48,650 nucleotides of DNA from Clostridiales bacterium. Lineage in GTDB: Bacteria; Bacillota; Peptococcia; DRI-13; UBA5745. The notes beneath the pieces are model-generated. The model was not told the DNA's origin and searched no databases. It worked only from the letters and a program-made list of their open reading frames with translations. The stretch is from NCBI GenBank assembly GCA_009782505.1, contig WRIW01000010.1, forward strand, positions 1-48,650, in the 5' to 3' direction. The position numbers and the translations under genes are program-made. This document shows positions 36,538-48,650 of this stretch, piece after piece. Positions within the stretch are counted from its first letter, which is position 1. Each line of letters begins with the position of its first letter.

Positions 36538-36834
36538 TTAATGCATGGGTTTCTCCTGCACCATCTTCGCGCATTGGGTGATCAGGATCGTGAGATCGGC
36601 GTCCTTCTTATGGGACATGGACGGCAGCTTCGCCATCAGCTTGCCTTTGGTTGAAGTCACATACTTCGGCGGCAGTTGGTTGAGCACCAGGGAACACACG
36701 TCCCAAAAGCATTTTTCGCACTGGCACATGTTCATCTTGGAGATGATGGATTTCGTCTTCTCAAAGACGATCTCTTCCATACTGTTGTGCAGCGACATTT
36801 TTCCCGTTTCTTCGGCTAATACGTTTTGCTCCAT
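36538..36834 (-). CDS. ComFB-family protein
   Basis: This is a 98-aa protein with the family pattern NSMEEIVFEKTKSII, the cysteine cluster CQCEKCFWDVCSLVLNQLPPKYV and TKGKL. In Bacillus, comFB lies in the late competence operon comF; the cysteine motif may bind metal. Newer work on cyanobacterial homologues links ComFB to cyclic nucleotide binding, from memory. The ATG at 36834 has GAGGTG 6 nt upstream. It is a single gene with its own strong promoter. Confidence 0.88.
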   Translation of the reverse strand: MEQNVLAEETGKMSLHNSMEEIVFEKTKSIISKMNMCQCEKCFWDVCSLVLNQLPPKYVTSTKGKLMAKLPSMSHKKDADLTILITQCAKMVQEKPMH

Positions 36835-36893
36835 GTCTAACACCTCGTTAGTCTTCAGGCTCTGGGGCGCCAGCCTCAGCCGGCGTCACTGCT

Positions 36894-36939: not shown

Positions 36940-37208
36940 CACCGTTTTTACTATTCAGAGGGATGGGCGTCTAAGGCGCGTCCATTTGCCGCGATGGTTC
37001 ACAGCTTCGGCCAGATATAGCAATCGTTCGATGCTAATCCTGACGACTACAACGCGACGTCGTGTCGCGTTCCGTCTGGTGCGACGTCCATGTCGCACCC
37101 ACGGATTTGCTCAATTTGCGATTGCTTATCTGTTAAACGAAGCCGTTCAATCCATCGCTTACAAATCGCCACGCTTTAGGCGCCCATCCCCCTGAACAGT
37201 AACGGGTG
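36940..37208. mobile_element. MITE-like or structured inverted-repeat element
   Basis: The outer arms, about 36940-37030 and 37110-37208, are imperfect inverted repeats along most of their length; the first 22 bases (TTACTATTCAGAGGGATGGG on the left) match the right end with two changes. Inside are two perfect 8-bp hairpins: AACGCGAC/GTCGCGTT (37051-37071) and GGTGCGAC/GTCGCACC (37078-37099), sharing the GCGAC word. The element carries no credible gene. Its right end supplies the last about 15 codons and the stop of the ABC ATPase gene. A non-autonomous transposon or a structured RNA would both fit; no target-site duplication is clear. Confidence 0.75.
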
Positions 37209-38022
37209 AGGGCTCGGCGCTGACCGGCAGGCAAATCGTTCTCTTCGCGCCGTATCTGTCCTCCGCTGTGACCACGTCGATCTCTATCCCATAGACCTCT
37301 TGCAGTATCTCCGGCGTGATCACCTCCGTCGGCCTTCCGAAAGCCACCGCCTCCCCGCCCCGCATCAGCAGCGCCTTGTGGCCTATGGCCAGTGGATGCT
37401 CCGGGCTATGGGTGGACATCACTACGCAGTACCCTTGTTCCGCGAGGCTGGCAGTCACATTCATCAGAAGCTGCTGATTCGCGTAGTCCAGGCTGGCCCC
37501 CGGCTCGTCCATCATGAATATGCTTGCCGATTGGCATATCGCCCTGGCTATCAATACCATTTGCCGCTGCCCGCCGCTAAGGGAAGTATACTTCGCGTTT
37601 GCCAAACGGCTGATCTTCAACTTGTCCAGAGCCGCGAAAGCCGCGTCCCGGTCTTCCCTCTTCGGCGCGCCGAAGGGGGATATCCGTCCCGCCCTGCCCA
37701 TGATGACGACGTCCAGCGCGGTATAAGCGAAGGCCGGCGTGTGGTACTGGGGGATATAAGCGATATGCCTCGCAAGCTCCGCGGGCGGGAGGGTAAGCGA
37801 CGGCTTGCCCCCCAGGCGTATCTCCCCGCCTGAAGCGGGGATCATGCCCAGGATCAGCCGGAACAAAGTCGTCTTACCGCAGCCGTTTGGGCCGATGAGG
37901 CAAAGTATCTCCCCGGCTTGCGCCGCGCAATGGATATGCTTTACCACGTCCGCCCCGCCGTACCCGCCGGACAGGTCGTCGATCTCCAGCGCCATATCTC
38001 GCGATACCATGCCGTCAGGCAT
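37159..38022 (-). CDS. FecE/BtuD-type ABC transporter ATPase
   Basis: This is the ATP-binding subunit of a type II importer. Walker A is GPNGCGKTT, the signature is LSGGQRQMV, Walker B is SIFMMDEPGASLD and the switch is MSTHSPEH. At 287 aa it is slightly long; the last residues (VTVQGDGRLKRGDL) are encoded by the inverted-repeat element, so the natural C-terminus was probably replaced. It starts 3 nt after the permease gene with GAGGGGGG upstream. Confidence 0.95.
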   Translation of the reverse strand: MPDGMVSRDMALEIDDLSGGYGGADVVKHIHCAAQAGEILCLIGPNGCGKTTLFRLILGMIPASGGEIRLGGKPSLTLPPAELARHIAYIPQYHTPAFAYTALDVVIMGRAGRISPFGAPKREDRDAAFAALDKLKISRLANAKYTSLSGGQRQMVLIARAICQSASIFMMDEPGASLDYANQQLLMNVTASLAEQGYCVVMSTHSPEHPLAIGHKALLMRGGEAVAFGRPTEVITPEILQEVYGIEIDVVTAEDRYGAKRTICLPVSAEPSPVTVQGDGRLKRGDL

Positions 38023-38025
38023 AAC

Positions 38026-39069
38026 CTATTCCCCCCTCCGCTTGATCATCAGATAGATGAAGAACGGAGCCCCCATCACGCTGACCACTACCCCCAGGGG
38101 GAGCTCCATGGACAGCACCGAGCGGGCGACGTCGTCCATGAGCACTAAGTAGGCAGCCCCAAGCATAGCCGAAGCCGGGATCAGCCGCCGGTAGTCCGGC
38201 CCCACCAGGGCGCGGCACATGTGGGGCGCCATAAGCCCTACCCAGCCGATAAGGCCGCCGAGGCAGACCGCTCCGGCGCTCATCATGGTTGAAGCGGCGA
38301 TGAGGATCACCCGGTACCGTCTGATATTGACGCCCAGGCTTTTCGCCTCCTCGTCGTCAAGGGTAAGCAGGTTGACGCGCCACCGCAGAAGATAGATGAG
38401 GATGAGCCCCGCCGCCATGGGCCCCGCGCTCCAGCCCAATGACTCCAGGTTTGCCTTAGCCAGGCTGCCCATGAGCCAGAAGACGAGCTGCTGCAGTACA
38501 TTACCAGGGTCGGCGATATACTTGATCATCGTGACGCCGGCGTTGCATAGGGCCATGACCATGGAGCCGGTCAGAACCAGGCTCAGGGCTTGGGAGTGGA
38601 CGGACCTCCGGCTGATCAGGTAGGAAAACACCACGGCGGACGCCCCTCCGGCGAAGGCCGAAAGCTGGATAAGCAAGCCGGGCAAGCCGTACAGGATGGC
38701 GAGAGCTGCACCTAAGCCCGCGCCGGAAGACACGCCAAGTATGTCCGGCGATACCAGGGGGTTGCGAAACATGCCCTGATATACGGAGCCCGCTACGGAC
38801 AGGGAAGCCCCGATCAGCGCGGCGGAAAGTATCCGCGGCAGCCGGATATGCCAAAATATCGTTACCGCCTGGGGCAGTATATCGCCCTTGTACCCGAAGC
38901 CCGCCGCGAAGCCTTTGACCACCTGCGCCGGCGTCAGGGGGTAGTAGCCGACCCCGAAGGACAGAAACACCACACAAGCCAAAGCGGCAAATAAAAGCGG
39001 CATAAGGAAACGGCTGTGGTTACGGTGGTTACGGGCCTTCTCCGGGCCCTTGACTTTCTTGCTGAACAA
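38026..39069 (-). CDS. FecCD-type importer permease
   Basis: This 347-aa permease has about ten hydrophobic helices and the family motifs RLPRILSAALIGASLSVAGS, QGMFRNPLVSPDILGVSSGA and GWVGLMAPHMCRALVGPDYRRLIP. The family imports siderophores, heme, cobalamin and, in Haemophilus MolBC, molybdate/tungstate. It is divergent from its binding-protein gene. Confidence 0.95.
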   Translation of the reverse strand: MFSKKVKGPEKARNHRNHSRFLMPLLFAALACVVFLSFGVGYYPLTPAQVVKGFAAGFGYKGDILPQAVTIFWHIRLPRILSAALIGASLSVAGSVYQGMFRNPLVSPDILGVSSGAGLGAALAILYGLPGLLIQLSAFAGGASAVVFSYLISRRSVHSQALSLVLTGSMVMALCNAGVTMIKYIADPGNVLQQLVFWLMGSLAKANLESLGWSAGPMAAGLILIYLLRWRVNLLTLDDEEAKSLGVNIRRYRVILIAASTMMSAGAVCLGGLIGWVGLMAPHMCRALVGPDYRRLIPASAMLGAAYLVLMDDVARSVLSMELPLGVVVSVMGAPFFIYLMIKRRGE

Positions 39070-39109
39070 TGTTACTCTCTTCTCAATCGAATGTTTTTTG
39101 AAAGCGATT

Positions 39110-39142
39110 CGTTTATCATAATACCTTGGTACACGTTATCAT
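39110..39142. promoter_or_regulatory. Candidate operator between divergent importer genes
   Basis: CGTTTATCAT (39110-39119) and CGTTATCAT (39134-39142) are near-identical direct repeats 24 nt apart in the 142-nt gap between permease and binding-protein genes. They loosely recall half of the ModE consensus, but the match is weak. Confidence 0.3.
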
Positions 39143-39211
39143 TTTTCACTACCCCCGTCAACAGAAAAATGAGGCGCTTGATCCTGAGAAAACGAGAGAA
39201 CGAGGTGCGAT

Positions 39212-40435
39212 ATGAAAAGCCATCCTTTGAATCCCTTCTTCACTGCCCTGCTGGCCGCCGCTCTGCTGGCTCTGCTGACTCTGCTGCTGCTAGCCGGCTG
39301 CGGCTCTCCCCCGGCTGGGGAGCCTCAAGGAGAGGGGCTCGCGTCCAGCCCGCAAGCCGGGGCGCCTGCCGCCGCGGGGCAAGCGCCGGGCGCGGCGCAA
39401 GAGGCGCCTGCCGGGATGCAAGGGACGCAACCCCCGGCGCCCCCGGGTAGCCCTCAGCCCCCCGCGCGGGAGATCACCGACATGGCGGGCAGGGTCATGA
39501 CGGTCCCGGGGGAGATAACTTCGATATTCCCTACTTTACCCGTAGCGGCTATCTATATCTACACTCTGGCGCCGGACTTGCTCCTGGGGTGGAACGTGGA
39601 TCTCAACGAAACCGAGCGCAGCGTCATACTTCCCCAATACCACTCCCTGCCTAACTTCGGCATGGGGGACGCGGTGAACTATGAAGCCGTCATCGCGGCG
39701 GCTCCCTCCCTCGTGTTAAATGTCGTCGCGATCAACGAAGGCACGATCGACCAGTCGGACAAGATGGCGGCAAGCCTGGGGGCGCCGGTAGCCATGGTGA
39801 GCACCAGGCTTGAGGACGCGCCGGAAGCCTATCGCTTCCTGGGCGAGCTGCTGGGCTTGGAGGGGCGGGCGGAAGCCCTTGCCTCCTACGCCGAGGCGAC
39901 CTTCCGGGATATCGACCGCATGGCGGTTCCCGAGGGGGACAAAGCCCGTATCTATTATGGAAACGGGGAGGATTCCCTGGAGACGGCGCCCCCCGGCTCC
40001 TCCAGCGGCCAGATCATCGAGATGGTCAAAGGCGTAAACGCAGCCGACCTTGAAGCCGGGGACGGCTCGCGCATCCGTATATCCCCGGAGCAGCTCCTGG
40101 CTTGGGATCCCGACGTCATCATCGTCAATGGCGAGCCCAGGGCCAGCCTTTCCGGAGGGACGGCGGCGCAAGCCATATTGGCAAATAAGGATTATGCCTC
40201 CCTCAAGGCGGTGCAAAACGGAAAGGTATTCGGCGCGCCCAACGCGCCTTTCAGCTGGATAGACAGGCCCGTGGGGCCAAACCGCCTGGTGGGGATACGC
40301 TGGCTGGCGAAGAAAATCTACCCGGCATACTTCGATTATGACGCGGACGACGAGGTTCGGGAATTCTATCGGTTATTCTACCATGTAGAGCTCAGCGATG
40401 AGAAGCTGGCGGAGATCTACCATGGAAGCCGCTGA
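39212..40435 (+). CDS. Lipoprotein substrate-binding protein of the FecCD-type importer
   Basis: A lipoprotein signal (about 1-31, lipobox LLAGC) precedes a Pro/Ala/Gly-rich linker (about 32-88) and a two-lobed COG0614-type binding domain beginning EITDMAGRVMTVPGEI. The ending FSWIDRPVGPNRLVGIRWLAKKIYP is typical of this group. GAGGTG lies just upstream of the ATG. Its gene overlaps a ModE-type regulator, which hints at molybdate or tungstate, not iron, as substrate. Confidence 0.93.
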   Translation: MKSHPLNPFFTALLAAALLALLTLLLLAGCGSPPAGEPQGEGLASSPQAGAPAAAGQAPGAAQEAPAGMQGTQPPAPPGSPQPPAREITDMAGRVMTVPGEITSIFPTLPVAAIYIYTLAPDLLLGWNVDLNETERSVILPQYHSLPNFGMGDAVNYEAVIAAAPSLVLNVVAINEGTIDQSDKMAASLGAPVAMVSTRLEDAPEAYRFLGELLGLEGRAEALASYAEATFRDIDRMAVPEGDKARIYYGNGEDSLETAPPGSSSGQIIEMVKGVNAADLEAGDGSRIRISPEQLLAWDPDVIIVNGEPRASLSGGTAAQAILANKDYASLKAVQNGKVFGAPNAPFSWIDRPVGPNRLVGIRWLAKKIYPAYFDYDADDEVREFYRLFYHVELSDEKLAEIYHGSR

Positions 40436-40787
40436 TCAAGCCGGCTCCGGGAGCCGGCCCATGAGAGCCGCGGTGAAGATACGCATCGTCGGCGATAAGC
40501 CCTTCTACGGGCCCGGCGCCCACCAGCTTCTGGTCCTGACGTCGGAGACCGGCTCCCTGCGGGAAGCCTGCCGCCGGATGGGGATGTCTTACAGCAAGGG
40601 GCGGGGCATCATACATCTGATGGAGCAGCAGTTGGGCTGCCCGGTCATCCTGAGCCGGCAAGGCGGCAAAGGCGGCGGGTATTCCACGGTGACGGAAGAA
40701 GGCGCCGATATCGGCCGCAGGTATGTGGCGTATTGCGCGGAAGCGAAGCAGGCGTTGGACGAATTGTTCGCCAAGCATTTCCGCTGA
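40422..40787 (+). CDS. ModE-type winged-helix regulator (DNA-binding domain only)
   Basis: The protein has the ModE N-terminal pattern: SETGSLREACRRMGMSYSKGRGIIHLMEQQLG, then RQGGKGGGYSTVTEEGADIGRRY. In E. coli ModE this part binds DNA and MOP domains bind molybdate; those are missing, as in many short homologues. The ATG at 40422 has GGAG 7 nt upstream and overlaps the binding-protein gene by 14 nt, so the two are coupled. Confidence 0.88.
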   Translation: MEAADQAGSGSRPMRAAVKIRIVGDKPFYGPGAHQLLVLTSETGSLREACRRMGMSYSKGRGIIHLMEQQLGCPVILSRQGGKGGGYSTVTEEGADIGRRYVAYCAEAKQALDELFAKHFR

Positions 40788-40792
40788 GATAC

Positions 40793-40841
40793 AACGCGCC
40801 GCGCTTGTCGCCACTGAATGAACGCGACAGCAAAGCGCGTT
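40793..40841. terminator. Hairpin between convergent regulator and P-type ATPase genes
   Basis: AACGCGC (40793-40799) pairs with GCGCGTT (40835-40841), and inside GCTTGTCGC (40803-40811) pairs with GCGACAGC (40824-40831) with one bulge. It overlaps the ATPase stop codon and probably ends both transcripts. Confidence 0.6.
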
Positions 40842-42717
40842 AGCGCAGCGCCCGCATAGCGTTGGCCACCGCGAGCACCGCGACGCCTACGTCCGCAAAC
40901 ACCGCCGCCCACATGCCGGCGAAGCCCAAAGCCCCAAGGAGCAGGATCAAGCCTTTCACGCCCAAAGCAAAGGCTGTGTTCTGCCTGGCTATCGCCACGG
41001 TCCCGGCAGCGCCTTTGACCGCCGCCACCAGCCGGAGCGGGTCGTCGTCCATGATGACCACGTCGGCGGCTTCTACGGCGGCTTCGCTCCCCAGGGCGCC
41101 CATGGCTACGCCCACGTCGGAGCGGGCCAGGGCGGGGGCGTCGTTTACGCCGTCGCCTACGAAGACTAGCTTCCCCTTCGCGGACTTCTCCTTCATCAGC
41201 CCTTCGACTTTGTCCACCTTATCCGCCGGTAGGAGGCCCGCGTATACCTCATCGACGCCCAACCGGGCAGCCACGCGCCCGCCGGCTTCCCCGCTATCGC
41301 CCGTGAGCATCACCGTTTTTTTGATCCCCAGCGCTTTCAGCCCGGCGATAGCCGCCCCGGCGCTTTCTTTGATTTGGTCGGCGACGACGATGTATCCCAG
41401 ATAACGATTTCCCCTCGCGAGGTGGACCGCCGCGTCCGGCATATCCGCCCCCGGCGCCACGCCAGACTTCTCTTCGATGAAAGCCTTGCTCCCCACATAG
41501 ACGGCTTCGCCGTCGATAGCCGCTTCCACGCCAAAGCCCGCCCTCTCCCGAACTTCGCCTACCCTGGCCGTGTCCGGCGCCTTGCCGTGGGCTTCCCGCA
41601 GGGAGCGGGCGATGGGATGGGCGGAGTAGCACTCCGCCAGCGCTGCCAGCTCCAGGAGCTCAGGCTCCGATAAGCCTATGGGCGCGATTTCGCTCACGTC
41701 GAAGCTGCCTTTCGTCAGCGTGCCTGTTTTGTCAAATACCACGATCTCCGCCCGTGCCAGGGCTTCGAGATAGTTGCCCCCTTTCACCAGGACGCCCCGC
41801 CCGGACGCCCCGCCCAGGCCGCCAAAGAAGCTCAGGGGTATGGAGATGACCAGGGCGCAGGGGCAGGAGATGACCAGGAAGGTCAGCGCCCTGTACACCC
41901 AGTCGCCAAACACGGCGCCGGGCAGCAGCAAAGGCGGCAGGACTGCCAGGCAAGCCGCGCAGGCGACTACCGCCGGCGTGTAGTACCGGGCGAAGCGGGT
42001 GATGAAGCTCTCCATGGAAGCCTTCTTGGCGCCGGCGTTCTCCACCAGGTCAAGTATCCTGGCGGCGGTGGATTGGCCGTAGGCTTTGTCCACGCGTACG
42101 GTGATAGCGCCGTCCAGATTGACGCAACCGCTGTAGACAAGCGAGCCTGCGGATACCGCCCGGGGTTTGGGTTCCCCCGTCAGGGACGAGACGTCCAGGG
42201 ACGATTGCCCCCCGCTCACCGTACCGTCCAGGGGCACGCGCTCGCCCGGCTTGACTAATATCTCCGCCCCTACGGGGACTTCTTCCGGGTCCGCTTCGAT
42301 CCACAAGCCGTCAACCATGATATTCGCGTGGTCGGGTCTTATGTCCATGAGGTCCGCGATGGATCTCCGGGATCTGCCCACGGCTACGGACTCAAATAAC
42401 GCGCCTACCTGATAAAACAACATGACAGCCACGCCCTCCCTGTACTCGCCCAGGCAAATGGCGCCGGCAGTGGCAATGGCCATCAGGAAGTTTTCATCAA
42501 AAATATGACCGCGTCTGATATTTGACGCGGCCTTGAGCAGGACGCTACCGCCGACGGCTATATACGCCGCCAGATATAGGGCTGTGGAAGCCGCCCAGCG
42601 CCAGGAAGCAGCCGTCCGGCTGCTTGCCGGGAGCCCCATGCCGATAAGTAAACCCGCCGCCAGGAGCGCCGCCGCGGCGATGATCCTGTAAAGCTGCTTT
42701 TTTTGCTTTTTCGTCAT
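40840..42717 (-). CDS. Heavy-metal P1B-type ATPase (Zn/Cd/Co group)
   Basis: This is a metal-exporting ATPase with the metal site VISCPCALVISIPLSFFGG, phosphorylation motif DKTGTLTKG, HP motif YSAHPIARS and hinge GDGVNDAPALARSDVGVAMG. The sequence after CPC and the conserved tail resemble ZntA/CadA rather than copper pumps. At 625 aa it lacks the usual N-terminal HMA domain, which is encoded by the separate small gene just upstream. Confidence 0.95.
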   Translation of the reverse strand: MTKKQKKQLYRIIAAAALLAAGLLIGMGLPASSRTAASWRWAASTALYLAAYIAVGGSVLLKAASNIRRGHIFDENFLMAIATAGAICLGEYREGVAVMLFYQVGALFESVAVGRSRRSIADLMDIRPDHANIMVDGLWIEADPEEVPVGAEILVKPGERVPLDGTVSGGQSSLDVSSLTGEPKPRAVSAGSLVYSGCVNLDGAITVRVDKAYGQSTAARILDLVENAGAKKASMESFITRFARYYTPAVVACAACLAVLPPLLLPGAVFGDWVYRALTFLVISCPCALVISIPLSFFGGLGGASGRGVLVKGGNYLEALARAEIVVFDKTGTLTKGSFDVSEIAPIGLSEPELLELAALAECYSAHPIARSLREAHGKAPDTARVGEVRERAGFGVEAAIDGEAVYVGSKAFIEEKSGVAPGADMPDAAVHLARGNRYLGYIVVADQIKESAGAAIAGLKALGIKKTVMLTGDSGEAGGRVAARLGVDEVYAGLLPADKVDKVEGLMKEKSAKGKLVFVGDGVNDAPALARSDVGVAMGALGSEAAVEAADVVIMDDDPLRLVAAVKGAAGTVAIARQNTAFALGVKGLILLLGALGFAGMWAAVFADVGVAVLAVANAMRALR

Positions 42718-44860: not shown

Positions 44861-47800
44861 TTATTCGTCTTCGTGTTTGCCTTTCTTCCTTGTGCCCATC
44901 AGGCCGATCAGCCCGCTGAGGCCCATGCCCATCATGCCGATTCCGCTTACTCCGCTGGTGCCGGTCTTGGGTAGGTTGCCCAGAGGCGTTTCCTCATCTT
45001 CGATGGTGAATTCCTCTTCCGGTTCTACGGCCGGGGGAAGCTGCGCCAGGGCGGGGGGAGCGTCGGGGATATCCACGATGGGGGTCGGGTCGGGGTCATA
45101 GGTAGGAGTCGTGTCGCCGTCTCCGTCGCCTTCGATTACAACGTCGCCAGGCCTCATGGTGACTGTGGCGGTGGAGGAACTGACCTCGGGTACCCAGAAA
45201 TCGTCTCCCTCTTTGACCAGGGATCCCCTAACCAGGGAAGCCACGTTGTCGTGGGGGCCTCTGCCGCTGAGAGGCATGGAGTAGGATATGGTGTATGAAC
45301 TGTTTTCGTTGCTGATGCTGAAGTATCCGTTCTCGGGCAGCTCGACCTTGTCATCGTTGATGTTTCCGCTGATGGACCAGACGAGACCTTCCACGCTGGG
45401 CGTGCCGCTTACAATGATCCGGTAGTTGACCGTCCGGTTAAGGGATCCAACAAAGTTGGCGGTCGACGCCCAGGTACCGTTGGCAAGCTGCACCTGCTTA
45501 GTGATGGTGATCTCCACTGTGTCGGGGGCGAACCGGTTGAACACGATGACCACGTCGCCGGGCTGCGCGTTCAGGCCGTTGTTGTCCCGCTGCATTAACT
45601 CATCCGGAGTCTCGCTGAGCTTGATGCCGTAGAACCGGAAGTCTTCAGGCAGTATGGACTCGGTGACTGTGTACTCCGCCTCTGCAAGGCCTTCAAAGGA
45701 GTTGCCGCCGACCAGGTTCGCGGTGACCCAGATCCTGTCATTCTCGATGGCGATGGCTTCCGGCGCCTCGTACTCGTCTGAGTATGACCCGTTCCAGCCT
45801 TCGCTGAAGTAGCTGATGAGGGCTTCGAAGTCGAAGTACAGGTTGCTGAGGATTTCCCTGACGACCTTCATGGACAGTACTTCCGGTGCGGCCGGGCTTT
45901 CGTCCCCAGGCTCTTCCCCGGCGGGATCTTCCGCTGCAGGCTCTTCTGCGGTAGGTTCTTCATTGTTCTCATCCTCAGAGGGTTCTTCATCGCCAGGCTC
46001 TTCGTCCCCGGGCTCTTCGCCCTCTGGCTCGCCCGCCCCGGGCGTTCCGGCAGTAAGCCCTTCGCCGTCTACGAGTTCCTCTGAGAAGGTCTGCATAGAC
46101 CTAGGCTGGTAATCGAACTGGGGAGCTTCAAAGCTCAGGGTGTAGGTCAGGTACTCGTCAAATAGGATTTCTTCAATGAACTGGATCGATACGGGTTCAC
46201 CTTCGCCCACTGCCAGGAGGATATCCAGGCTGTAGATCGTATTCAGGGCTAGCCCCTCAAATCTGATTTCATCCTCATTCTCAATGACTGCGATGATTTC
46301 TTCGTCCAGCTCGTCGCTGTCCAGCACCGCGATGAGGTTCAGGGCTTCCCCTATGCCATCGTTGGTCTCTCCGTAGAACATCTCGAGTCCAAAGAAGATG
46401 GAAGCTACGTCTACGATGACCGTTCCGGCGGCGGCTTCTACTTCGTCTGTGGCGATCGTCATCTCGAAGTCTTTGTTGACCTCTTCGTTGCTGATGAGCC
46501 TGCCGCGATATACGATGTACTTGACGACTTTGATTGTTCCGTCTTCGATTTCCGGCGCCCCGGATACCCGGTTCACCACGGTGGTGACGCCTTCATCCTC
46601 TGTCCAGTAGACGTCCAGGATCTCTACCAGCTCAAATCCGCTTTCCTCGACAAGGATCTCTTCGATTTCTACGTCTTCCGCAGCCTTGTCCATGTTGCTG
46701 ATCTCGAACTTGACGGATTCGCCGTTACGGATAGGCTGAGTGCTAACTACTGTGTCTTCTCCGGTGTTGTCGGTGACCCGGATGATGAACTCGTTGCGAT
46801 ACTGTTCGTAGAGGTTGTGACTTTCGTCGATCAGGTCGCCTTCTTTATCCAGGAGGGCTTTGTGCACCGTCAGTGACCCCGAGCTGTCTTCGTACAGTAC
46901 CTTGATCACGTTGCCGCTGATGGTGATGGTCTGGTCGCCGTTGACTACCGACCCCGGCTTGAACCCGGAAGGCCTGTTGCCAATCAGGTCGAAGTCGCTG
47001 ATCAAATCGCTGAAGAAGGTACCGAATACCGCGATGCCGCCAGTGTTCGTCCCGGGCGCCGCCTCGATGCGGTTCGCTTCGACGTCGATCTCGTTCTTGT
47101 AGTACTCCACGGTGTAATCATAAGAGTTGATCGCCCAGAAGCCTGTGAATTCTACGTCATTGTCTGGCATATAGAACTCACCGTCCACAACATCCGCGTC
47201 TTCGGTTACCCAATCGCTGAATGTATATCCCATGAGTACCGGTGCGTCTGCGACTGTCTTCAGTGTATCAAATATGACCTCTGATTCGGTGGCAGGCAGC
47301 GCGGGCGCTCCAGGAGGAATCGTTCCGGTGTAAGCATAGGTGATGGCGTGGTCATTTTTCTCGAAGTTCGCGTAGTAAGTTGCCTCTACATTCAGCCCGC
47401 CGACTTTAGCCGGTACGAACATCTCGTTTTCGCTGACTTCTTCGCCTGCTTCGTTGGTCCAGTTCACGAAATGGTACCCTACCGCTACGGAGGCTTCCGA
47501 TCCTGCTGCTACGCCGGTAGCCGGAGGTAATGACTCGCTGTCGCGTGATACATAGCCGCCCTCGTTCGCGATGTAAGTAATGGTGATGTTGTCGTTCTCC
47601 GTGAAGATCGCGGTGTAGGTCACTGTCTCATATATCCCGCCGTTCTTCTCCGGCGCTACCGTCGCGTCGCTCAGGTCTGTCGCGTCTACCGTCAGCGTCG
47701 TCGTCCAGTGGGAGAAGGTGTATCCCGGGTTGGCGCTAGCTATCGAGCCAAGCGCTGTGCCCGTAGCCGGGGCTACGCTCTCGCTATCCAGCGATACTGT

Positions 47801-48650
47801 GCCGTTTCCGTCCGTTGTGTAAGTAATTGTGACGTTCGCGTTCTCTGTGAAGATCGCGGTGTAGGTCACTGCCTCATATATCCCGCCGTTCTTCTGCGGC
47901 GCTACATAAGCGGCGCCCAGGGTTGTGGCGTCTGCCGCCAGCGTGGTTGTCCAATGAGAGAAGGTATATCCAGGTTTAGCAACCGCCGTTGAGCCAAGCG
48001 CTGTGCCTGTAGCAGGAGCTACGCTCTCATTTGCCCGTGATACTGTTCCGTTTCCGTCTGTTGTATAAGTTATCACTACATTATTATTCTCGGTGAAGAT
48101 CGCGGTGTAGGTCACTGCCTGGTATATCCCGCCATTTTTCTGCGGCGTAATCGTTGCAGCTGTCCGGCCTGTCGCATCTACTGTCAGCGTCGTTGTCCAA
48201 TGGGAGAATGTATATCCCGCTTTGGCAGTCGCCATCGAACCTGCCGCTGTTCCCGTCGCCGGGGCTACGCTCTCGCTGTCAAGCGATACTGTGCCGTTGC
48301 CGTCCGTCGTGTAGTTGATGGTAACGTTTGCGTTCTCGGTGAAGATCGCGGTGTAGGTCACTGCCTGATAAAGCCCATCGTTTTTCTGCGGCGCTACATA
48401 CGCAGCTCCCAGGCTTGTGGCGTCTACTGCCAGCGATGTCGTCCAGTGGGAGAATGTGTATCCCGCTTTGGCAGTCGCCGTCGAACCTTGCGCTGTTCCC
48501 GTCGCCGGGGCTACGCTCTCGCTGTCAAGCGATACGGAACCGTTGCCGTCCGTCGTGTAAGTAATCGTGACGTTCGCGTTCTCTACGAAGATCGCGGTGT
48601 AGGTCACTGCCTGGTAGATCCCGCCGTTCTTCAACGGGTTCACTGTCGCA
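44861..48650 (-). CDS. Large LPXTG surface protein with InlB-type repeats (5' end outside window)
   Basis: At least 1,260 residues are visible; the reading frame is open to the right edge, so start and signal peptide are missing. From the edge inward come tandem InlB B/Flg_new-type repeats of 82 aa (YTTDGNG...GYTFSHWTT...YTAIF), a degenerate repeat, a domain with YDYTVEYYKNE, Cna-B-like segments (GSLTVHKALLDKEGDLI, GTIKVVKYIVYRGRLI), an acidic Glu/Pro/Gly spacer, further beta domains, then VDIPDAPPALA and the sorting signal NLPKTG with a Gly/Met-rich helix and KKGKHEDE tail. It is probably an adhesin or wall-surface protein and a sortase substrate. Its C-terminal signature is shared with LPXTG proteins 1 and 2. 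Confidence 0.9.
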   Translation of the reverse strand, partial: ATVNPLKNGGIYQAVTYTAIFVENANVTITYTTDGNGSVSLDSESVAPATGTAQGSTATAKAGYTFSHWTTSLAVDATSLGAAYVAPQKNDGLYQAVTYTAIFTENANVTINYTTDGNGTVSLDSESVAPATGTAAGSMATAKAGYTFSHWTTTLTVDATGRTAATITPQKNGGIYQAVTYTAIFTENNNVVITYTTDGNGTVSRANESVAPATGTALGSTAVAKPGYTFSHWTTTLAADATTLGAAYVAPQKNGGIYEAVTYTAIFTENANVTITYTTDGNGTVSLDSESVAPATGTALGSIASANPGYTFSHWTTTLTVDATDLSDATVAPEKNGGIYETVTYTAIFTENDNITITYIANEGGYVSRDSESLPPATGVAAGSEASVAVGYHFVNWTNEAGEEVSENEMFVPAKVGGLNVEATYYANFEKNDHAITYAYTGTIPPGAPALPATESEVIFDTLKTVADAPVLMGYTFSDWVTEDADVVDGEFYMPDNDVEFTGFWAINSYDYTVEYYKNEIDVEANRIEAAPGTNTGGIAVFGTFFSDLISDFDLIGNRPSGFKPGSVVNGDQTITISGNVIKVLYEDSSGSLTVHKALLDKEGDLIDESHNLYEQYRNEFIIRVTDNTGEDTVVSTQPIRNGESVKFEISNMDKAAEDVEIEEILVEESGFELVEILDVYWTEDEGVTTVVNRVSGAPEIEDGTIKVVKYIVYRGRLISNEEVNKDFEMTIATDEVEAAAGTVIVDVASIFFGLEMFYGETNDGIGEALNLIAVLDSDELDEEIIAVIENEDEIRFEGLALNTIYSLDILLAVGEGEPVSIQFIEEILFDEYLTYTLSFEAPQFDYQPRSMQTFSEELVDGEGLTAGTPGAGEPEGEEPGDEEPGDEEPSEDENNEEPTAEEPAAEDPAGEEPGDESPAAPEVLSMKVVREILSNLYFDFEALISYFSEGWNGSYSDEYEAPEAIAIENDRIWVTANLVGGNSFEGLAEAEYTVTESILPEDFRFYGIKLSETPDELMQRDNNGLNAQPGDVVIVFNRFAPDTVEITITKQVQLANGTWASTANFVGSLNRTVNYRIIVSGTPSVEGLVWSISGNINDDKVELPENGYFSISNENSSYTISYSMPLSGRGPHDNVASLVRGSLVKEGDDFWVPEVSSSTATVTMRPGDVVIEGDGDGDTTPTYDPDPTPIVDIPDAPPALAQLPPAVEPEEEFTIEDEETPLGNLPKTGTSGVSGIGMMGMGLSGLIGLMGTRKKGKHEDE
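47560..48650 (-). repeat. 246-bp tandem repeats encoding InlB-type modules
   Basis: Four and a part copies with a 246-nt period are recognised by the recurring GTGAAGATCGCGGTGTAGGTCA near 47601, 47847, 48093, 48339 and 48583. Neighbouring copies are very similar at DNA level, so recombination or assembly collapse could change copy number. The array continues beyond the window. Confidence 0.9.

Follow-up and report, generated by a model that had tools for sequence, protein, structure and literature searches.

Which substrate is taken up by a FecCD-type ATP-binding cassette (ABC) importer whose genes adjoin that of a ModE-type DNA-binding protein? FecCD systems are usually annotated as iron-siderophore importers. 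The importer in question was found in a Clostridiales bacterium (GenBank assembly GCA_009782505.1), on a stretch of 48,650 nucleotides (nt) of contig WRIW01000010.1, which was analysed as a whole and is referred to below as the window; it is contig 10 of a 1.98-Mb genome in 73 contigs that is 83 % complete. Judged from sequence comparisons, the system is very probably a type II (FecCD/BtuC-fold) importer of the MolBCA kind for molybdate, perhaps also tungstate, placed under a ModE-like regulator. A preliminary description of the sequence had proposed a molybdate or tungstate candidate, and that proposal is now supported, as a prediction, by the grouping of the permease with MolB, by molybdenum (Mo) and tungsten (W) genes near related importers and by molybdenum cofactor (Moco) riboswitches in relatives. 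It is further backed by a palindrome with the frame of the ModE box and by a genome that has Mo/W enzymes and no ModA match.

The importer locus

The four genes of the locus are as follows.
37159-38022, minus strand: ABC ATPase of the importer, 287 amino acids (aa); ABC_tran 7.2e-27 (Pfam)
38026-39069, minus strand: FecCD permease, 347 aa, TTG start; FecCD 1.1e-86, 291 bits, whole model (Pfam)
39212-40435, plus strand: substrate-binding lipoprotein, 407 aa; Peripla_BP_2 4e-22 (Pfam), domain at about residues 82-407
40398-40787, plus strand: regulator with the ModE N-domain only, 129 aa if begun at the first ATG; HTH_1 27.0 bits (cut-off 26.6)

Open reading frames (ORFs) and Pfam matches bear out the layout first described, with ATPase and permease genes divergent from those of the binding protein and the helix-turn-helix (HTH) protein. 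The described overlap of the latter two genes also holds, at 38 nt if the first ATG (40398) is taken as the start; by eye, the in-frame ATG at 40422 has a better ribosome site and reduces the overlap to 14 nt, and a start at ATG 40461 gives a gap instead. The HTH domain is intact with any of these three starts. The binding protein has the lipobox LAGC with Cys30 (by eye).

Relationships of the permease and binding protein

The best match of the permease in the PDB was MolB of Haemophilus influenzae (HI1471; 2nq2) at 212.8 bits, ahead of HmuU (177.6), FhuB (166.8) and BtuC (147.4). A quick maximum-likelihood tree of 144 permeases placed it in a 14-row subclade (Shimodaira-Hasegawa-like approximate likelihood ratio test, SH-aLRT, 100) and in an 82-row clade containing MolB (SH-aLRT 94), where MolB is on a long branch and in no starred set, long-branch joins being flagged elsewhere in the tree.

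A profile built from 50 binding proteins was compared with the PDB and, among the best 60 of 82 matches, scored highest with 4pag (282 bits), 4ovk (192) and 4hn9 (184), followed in fourth place by MolA (157 bits over its full length), YiuA (121) and 4mo9 (117), below which came siderophore, haem, Ni and B12 proteins. The AlphaFold2 model of the window's binding protein (predicted local distance difference test, pLDDT, 94.2; predicted template modelling score, pTM, 0.91) gave the same leading order in fold comparison, with 4pag at Z 34.5, 4ovk at 29.5 and 4hn9 at 28.6. Trp349 and Arg358 of the binding protein, both candidate pocket residues, are conserved. The closest named binding proteins, among the matches listed, are those of Oscillospiraceae- and Lachnospiraceae-type Clostridia.

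Molybdenum and tungsten genes around related importers

Relatives were searched for in one genome per species across 84,980 species; at least 539 were confirmed and the best 80 were kept (L-numbers denote loci). The Mo/W markers counted were ModE, MoeA, MoaA, MoaB, MoaC, MocA, MobB, XdhC, YqeC, Mo hydroxylase, AOR, TupA, ModA and ModB, with score floors set after the neighbour gene lists had been seen, and NTPase_1, DUF364 and FmdE were not counted as Mo markers. Neighbour families came from profiles begun with single proteins, part of which were confirmed with Pfam. A comparison group of 64 FecCD genes outside the set was drawn from the window's order, in genomes other than those of the named loci.

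A marker lay within 6 kb of 38 of the 76 FecCD genes of the set and of 5 of the 64 others (Fisher p 3.7e-8, with rows that are not independent). The count divides into 9/14 for the close systems, window included, and 29/62 for the rest of the set; after collapsing by genus or title, 31/56 had a marker. Five of the 64 others (L088, L246, L261, L262 and L273) fall inside the tree clade, and counting by clade gave a nearby marker for 38 of the 81 genes inside it and for 5 of the 59 beyond it. ModE alone was within 6 kb in 17 cases in the set and 2 among the others (p 0.0009).

The 13 closest loci among the matches listed are L111-L123, with best segments 46-65 % identical. L111 shares the divergent four-gene layout of the window, L112 has XdhC, MocA-ModE, NTPase_1 and MoeA as neighbours, and in three Blautia loci XdhC, MocA-ModE and a Mo hydroxylase stand beside the importer. 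L114 comes from Blautia luti. In L118, a precorrin-reductase-like ORF starts about 2.8 kb past the binding-protein gene (by eye). The five marker-positive genes among the others include one in the gene line substrate-binding protein-FecCD-ATPase-YqeC-MocA-ModE (L079, genome G012) and one in the second FecCD system of the window's own genome, beside XdhC and MobB (L095). Clade loci come from Clostridia, Alphaproteobacteria, Hydrogenophaga, Chlorobiaceae and others.

Further genes were seen near these importers. In L157, L164, L173, L174, L181, L184 and L189, MoeA, ModB/TupB-like and TupA-like genes adjoin the FecCD system, possibly as paired Mo/W importers. DUF364/DUF4213 ('putative heavy-metal chelation') occurred within 6 kb of 11/76 FecCD genes of the set (as in L132, L145, L148, L152, L153 and L154) and of 1/64 others, the single case being L088, inside the clade; this is a hint that DUF364 handles Mo or W. 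Methyltransferase-like ORFs were noted by eye in or beside importer operons (L112:5447-6451, L114:6446-7345, L117:6837-7781, L154:7170-8090 and L155:8494-9246). FmdE was dropped as a Mo marker, being commoner near the other FecCD genes (8/64) than in the set (2/76).

Moco riboswitches in relatives

The RNA-family scan covered 37 loci, made up of 36 of the 80 named ones and L088. Nine of the 37 have a Moco riboswitch (RF01055) that lies upstream in the same orientation. It precedes the permease in L129, L131, L132 and L158 (the last with 38.1 bits against a gathering score of 36, and a small ORF in between), the binding protein in L124 (where no FecCD gene was found in the locus), L150 and L165, moeA in L123, and FmdE in L088. 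The RF01055 match of L175 is on the opposite strand and was excluded from the count, and the RNA-family scan gave no Moco riboswitch for L079 and L095. L088 belongs to the window's order and, among 40 genomes, holds the best binding-protein match outside the window's genome; because the gene behind its riboswitch is FmdE, some of the other FecCD systems may be Mo/W systems too.

In L123 a single strand carries moeA-moaC-moaA-moaB-FecCD-ATPase-binding protein, where at least 335 nt following moaA are unassigned, and the riboswitch has a hairpin that was taken for P3. P3-bearing RNAs have been tied to Moco, and P3-less ones to the tungsten cofactor (Tuco) (PMC2408646).

The ModE-like regulator and its candidate operator

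The HTH protein matched the NCBIfam model ModE_repress (TIGR00637) with an E-value of 1.5e-13 and 50.7 bits, as the sole match in its genome, and its three PDB sequence matches at E up to 0.01 are all ModE-type (2ijl, 1b9m and 1o7l). C-terminal Mop/TOBE molybdate-binding domains were not found in it with Pfam and NCBIfam models, its 129 aa holding the HTH only. ModE-like matches occur in 13 of 25 genomes of the window's order, every one of them also under the TIGR00637 cut-off. Elsewhere, ModE domains lie within larger ORFs (L069, L072, L076, L078, L082, L112, L114 and others), several behind a MocA-like domain, and the ModE-like protein at L111:11052-11756 is extended at its C-terminus by about 100 residues, clustered cysteines among them (by eye), a possible sensor part.

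Three candidate control elements were placed between or close to the divergent genes.
39088-39111, no strand: candidate ModE-type operator CGAATGTTTTTTGAAAGCGATTCG, a 24-bp palindrome between the divergent genes
39050-39078, plus strand: candidate promoter of binding protein-modE, TTGACT-17-TACTCT, 4 mismatches, weak in the window
39156-39161, minus strand: TTGAC -35-like element of the facing permease-ATPase promoter (by eye), the -10 not being clear in the window

By eye, the divergent intergenic regions have a common 24-bp palindrome, CGAAT-N14-ATTCG, whose CG-N20-CG frame is that of the Escherichia coli ModE consensus, while the inner halves differ. Its arms are exact in the window, L114, L116 and L122, and have one mismatch in L111 and L115 and three in L112 and L117; a 2-mismatch match in L121, elsewhere than the expected position, was left uncounted. 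When 1.71 Mb of DNA were searched with CGAATNNTTTTNNAAANNNATTCG, allowing up to 3 mismatches, 11 sites were found, 7 of them in these intergenic regions (the L111 palindrome escapes the pattern). An exact site was found directly before mocA-modE in L155, 8 nt after TATAAT; this distant relative was not among the loci from which the palindrome was derived. The remaining sites, with 3 mismatches each, are directly before FecCD in L154 and elsewhere in L121 and L141. In the window's own genome, the other sites were one with 2 mismatches (C12) and one with 3 (C27), none having fewer than 2. The C12 site is flanked by the S5-like and SecY-like ORFs (by eye) of a ribosomal-protein cluster; it was rejected as a true operator and taken as chance.

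The candidate promoter at 39050-39078 starts inside the permease gene and ends 9 nt before the candidate operator. An equally good score arose in 15.6 % of shuffles, against 0.2-3 % in six of seven relatives and 39 % in L122. In 13 of the 16 flanks of eight regions, the best sigma-70-like match stopped 7-12 nt short of the palindrome and was directed towards it, on the left as on the right. The combined p over seven loci was about 1e-6 on the left and 3e-8 on the right, with L115 excluded and L114 and L116 remaining as close kin; the right flank of L111 (0.86) and the left flank of L122 (0.39) were not significant.

Molybdenum and tungsten enzymes of the genome

Seven Mo hydroxylase (PF02738) and eight AOR (PF01314) matches were found in the window's genome, along with moaC, moaA and four PF00994 matches, two in MoeA ORFs, one in a MOSC-MoaB ORF and one in an ORF named CinA-like by eye; PF00384 had no match. 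The eight AOR-family matches (L103-L110) are a notable number of presumed tungsten enzymes for a 2-Mb genome. Beside moeA there is a PF12849 binding protein with an ABC ATPase, named Tup-like, whose permease was not confirmed; we take the TTTS motif and the setting beside moeA as grounds for this name. The genome has two FecCD permeases and no match to ModA (TIGR01256), the window's binding protein being Peripla_BP_2 instead. Absences are provisional because of the 83 % completeness. The Tup-like system would serve tungstate and ModA has no match, which makes molybdate the likelier cargo of the FecCD systems, and likelier than tungstate for the window's importer. A moeA1-mobB-tupBCA cluster is described for tungsten in Methylorubrum (PMC13197769), which agrees with the alphaproteobacterial loci that have MoeA and TupA-like genes beside the FecCD system.

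Proposed function

The lipoprotein would bind the oxyanion and dock on the permease, and the ATPase would power import, as is established for the family. Imported molybdate, perhaps also tungstate, would then serve the Mo hydroxylases (and AORs). The ModE N-domain protein may bind the 24-bp palindrome and shut both divergent units when Mo suffices. In relatives, the sequence pattern is one of two facing promoters, weak in the window, whose -10 boxes flank the palindrome, and some relatives have Moco riboswitches upstream instead.

Several results weigh against this proposal. The fold comparison ties MolA (Z 25.9) with the iron-siderophore protein YiuA (25.3), both behind 4pag, 4ovk and 4hn9, so that the modelled fold alone does not decide the cargo; these three structures are nearer to the window's binding protein than MolA is, and 4hn9, which also exceeds MolA in bits, is an iron-complex protein by its depositors' name. 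The score of the regulator is below the curated TIGR00637 cut-off of 98.5 bits, and there is no TOBE match anywhere in the 83 % complete genome. Five of the 14 close systems (L113, L118, L120, L121 and L122) have no counted marker within 6 kb, and in four of them, L122 being the exception, no palindrome was found either. In the window itself, a generic palindrome test was not significant, nor were the promoters on either flank (0.156 and 0.062), and TwoAYGGAY was the only RNA family matched, with no Moco riboswitch found. Finally, two other systems of the genome, the Tup-like one and the second FecCD one, could meet the need.

Alternative explanations

Tungstate rather than molybdate as the main cargo, destined for AOR-family enzymes, would fit the eight PF01314 matches, the several alphaproteobacterial members beside MoeA and TupA-like genes, and the binding of both anions by MolA (PMC4031551). 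It is nevertheless unlikely: the genome already has the Tup-like system by moeA (its permease not confirmed), close relatives adjoin XdhC, MocA and Mo hydroxylase with AOR within 6 kb in none, and the L123 riboswitch, with its presumed P3, is of the type assigned to Moco in PMC2408646.

It is similarly doubtful that the palindrome is the site of another regulator and that the ModE-like protein acts elsewhere. The pairing of the two was made from sequence, and the protein is without a sensor domain; against this, TIGR00637 matches nothing else in the genome and the palindrome lies beside this gene, there is no other site with fewer than 2 mismatches in the genome, and the exact site of L155 precedes mocA-modE.

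FecCD-type systems mostly carry chelates, and this together with the DUF364 counts given above speaks for Mo or W being carried as a complex with an organic chelator and not as the bare oxyanion. This is improbable, given that MolA binds bare molybdate and tungstate (PMC4031551) and that a profile search found no DUF364 near the window genes.

Least probable of all is an ordinary ferric-siderophore, haem or cobalamin importer standing beside a ModE-like gene by chance, for which the general naming of the FecCD family, the fold tie with YiuA and the name of 4hn9 would speak, and against which stand the repeated Mo linkage, the Moco riboswitches, the MolB clade, an RNA-family scan without a cobalamin riboswitch in the window, and a Fur-box match (one consensus tried) only at 946-964 and none near the importer. 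With curated NCBIfam siderophore, haem and cobalamin models, all matches of the three importer proteins were under the cut-off (for the ATPase, among the best 25 of 185).

Comparison with known systems

The molybdate importer thus proposed resembles H. influenzae MolBCA (HI1470-1472) in its permease clade, its related binding protein and its type II architecture; it differs in a binding protein nearer to 4pag, 4ovk and 4hn9 than to MolA, in its divergent layout and in having its own ModE-type gene. In H. influenzae, molybdate repression of molB is ascribed to an unknown factor (PMC4031551). The regulator resembles the single-domain ModE of Desulfovibrio and D. psychrophila, which likewise consists of the DNA-binding domain alone and whose route of Mo sensing is left unclear in PMC545781; in Desulfovibrio too a long palindrome is proposed as the ModE site. 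The Desulfovibrio-type protein is associated with mod operons and CGGTCACG-N14-CGTGACCG, and the window's with a FecCD importer and CGAAT-N14-ATTCG. With E. coli ModE and its box (consensus in PMC545781) the locus has in common the CG-N20-CG frame, an A+T-rich palindrome and a related HTH, but the window's regulator is without the molybdate-binding domains and its palindrome without the inner TATATA halves. Operons controlled by Moco riboswitches (PMC2408646) are paralleled by RF01055 before the importers of relatives, and differ in that the window has no such RNA.

According to a 2018 survey (PMC6147048), the Mo/W ABC importers known in prokaryotes are ModABC, WtpABC and TupABC; it reports 278 Mo-using bacteria without a known transporter and considers that there may be other uptake systems. 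Our data lean towards FecCD-type Mo/W importers being a widespread class, with some members under Moco/Tuco riboswitches and others next to ModE domains. Such a class would escape surveys limited to ModABC, WtpABC and TupABC, and the sensor-less ModE would have to sense Mo by a new route and act on two facing promoters through one central operator. A literature search of titles and abstract beginnings, covering few subscription journals, gave nothing on FecCD importers with ModE or Moco riboswitches. No claim to a first report is made, since PMC2408646 notes an operon of Syntrophomonas wolfei for transport of molybdate or tungstate that possibly belongs to this importer class. If the clade is shown to import Mo or W, many annotations would be corrected, and the sensor-less ModE-like regulator makes testable the question of Mo sensing in Desulfovibrio that PMC545781 raised in 2004.

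Mobile element and neighbouring genes

The remaining features near the importer are the following.
36538-36843: ComFB-like gene, beyond the mobile element on the ATPase side
36951-37203, minus strand: dispersed inverted-repeat element, carrying a TwoAYGGAY RNA (RF01731) at 36997-37150
40840-42717: heavy-metal P-type ATPase gene, adjoining the plus-strand importer genes and convergent with them

The element is about 250 bp long with inverted terminal repeats of about 30 bp, and folds as a single hairpin (-141.7 kcal/mol, z -12.9). Matching stretches number 47 in the genome, some partial and some consisting only of repeat arms, and a scan of 2.8 Mb of DNA from other genomes found none. The Rfam score for TwoAYGGAY was reached by 10 of the 19 other copies scanned. 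By eye, the importer ATPase gene ends within the element, which provides its final 14 codons and its stop codon (37159-37203, minus strand). TwoAYGGAY, typed Cis-reg in Rfam and rated probably not cis-regulatory in PMC2864571, was rejected as a control element of the importer because of that rating, its position 3' of the ATPase gene and its being part of a dispersed repeat. Farther along, 44861-48643 (minus strand) encodes a large repeat-rich surface-type protein with an LPKTG-like sorting signal at its end (by eye).

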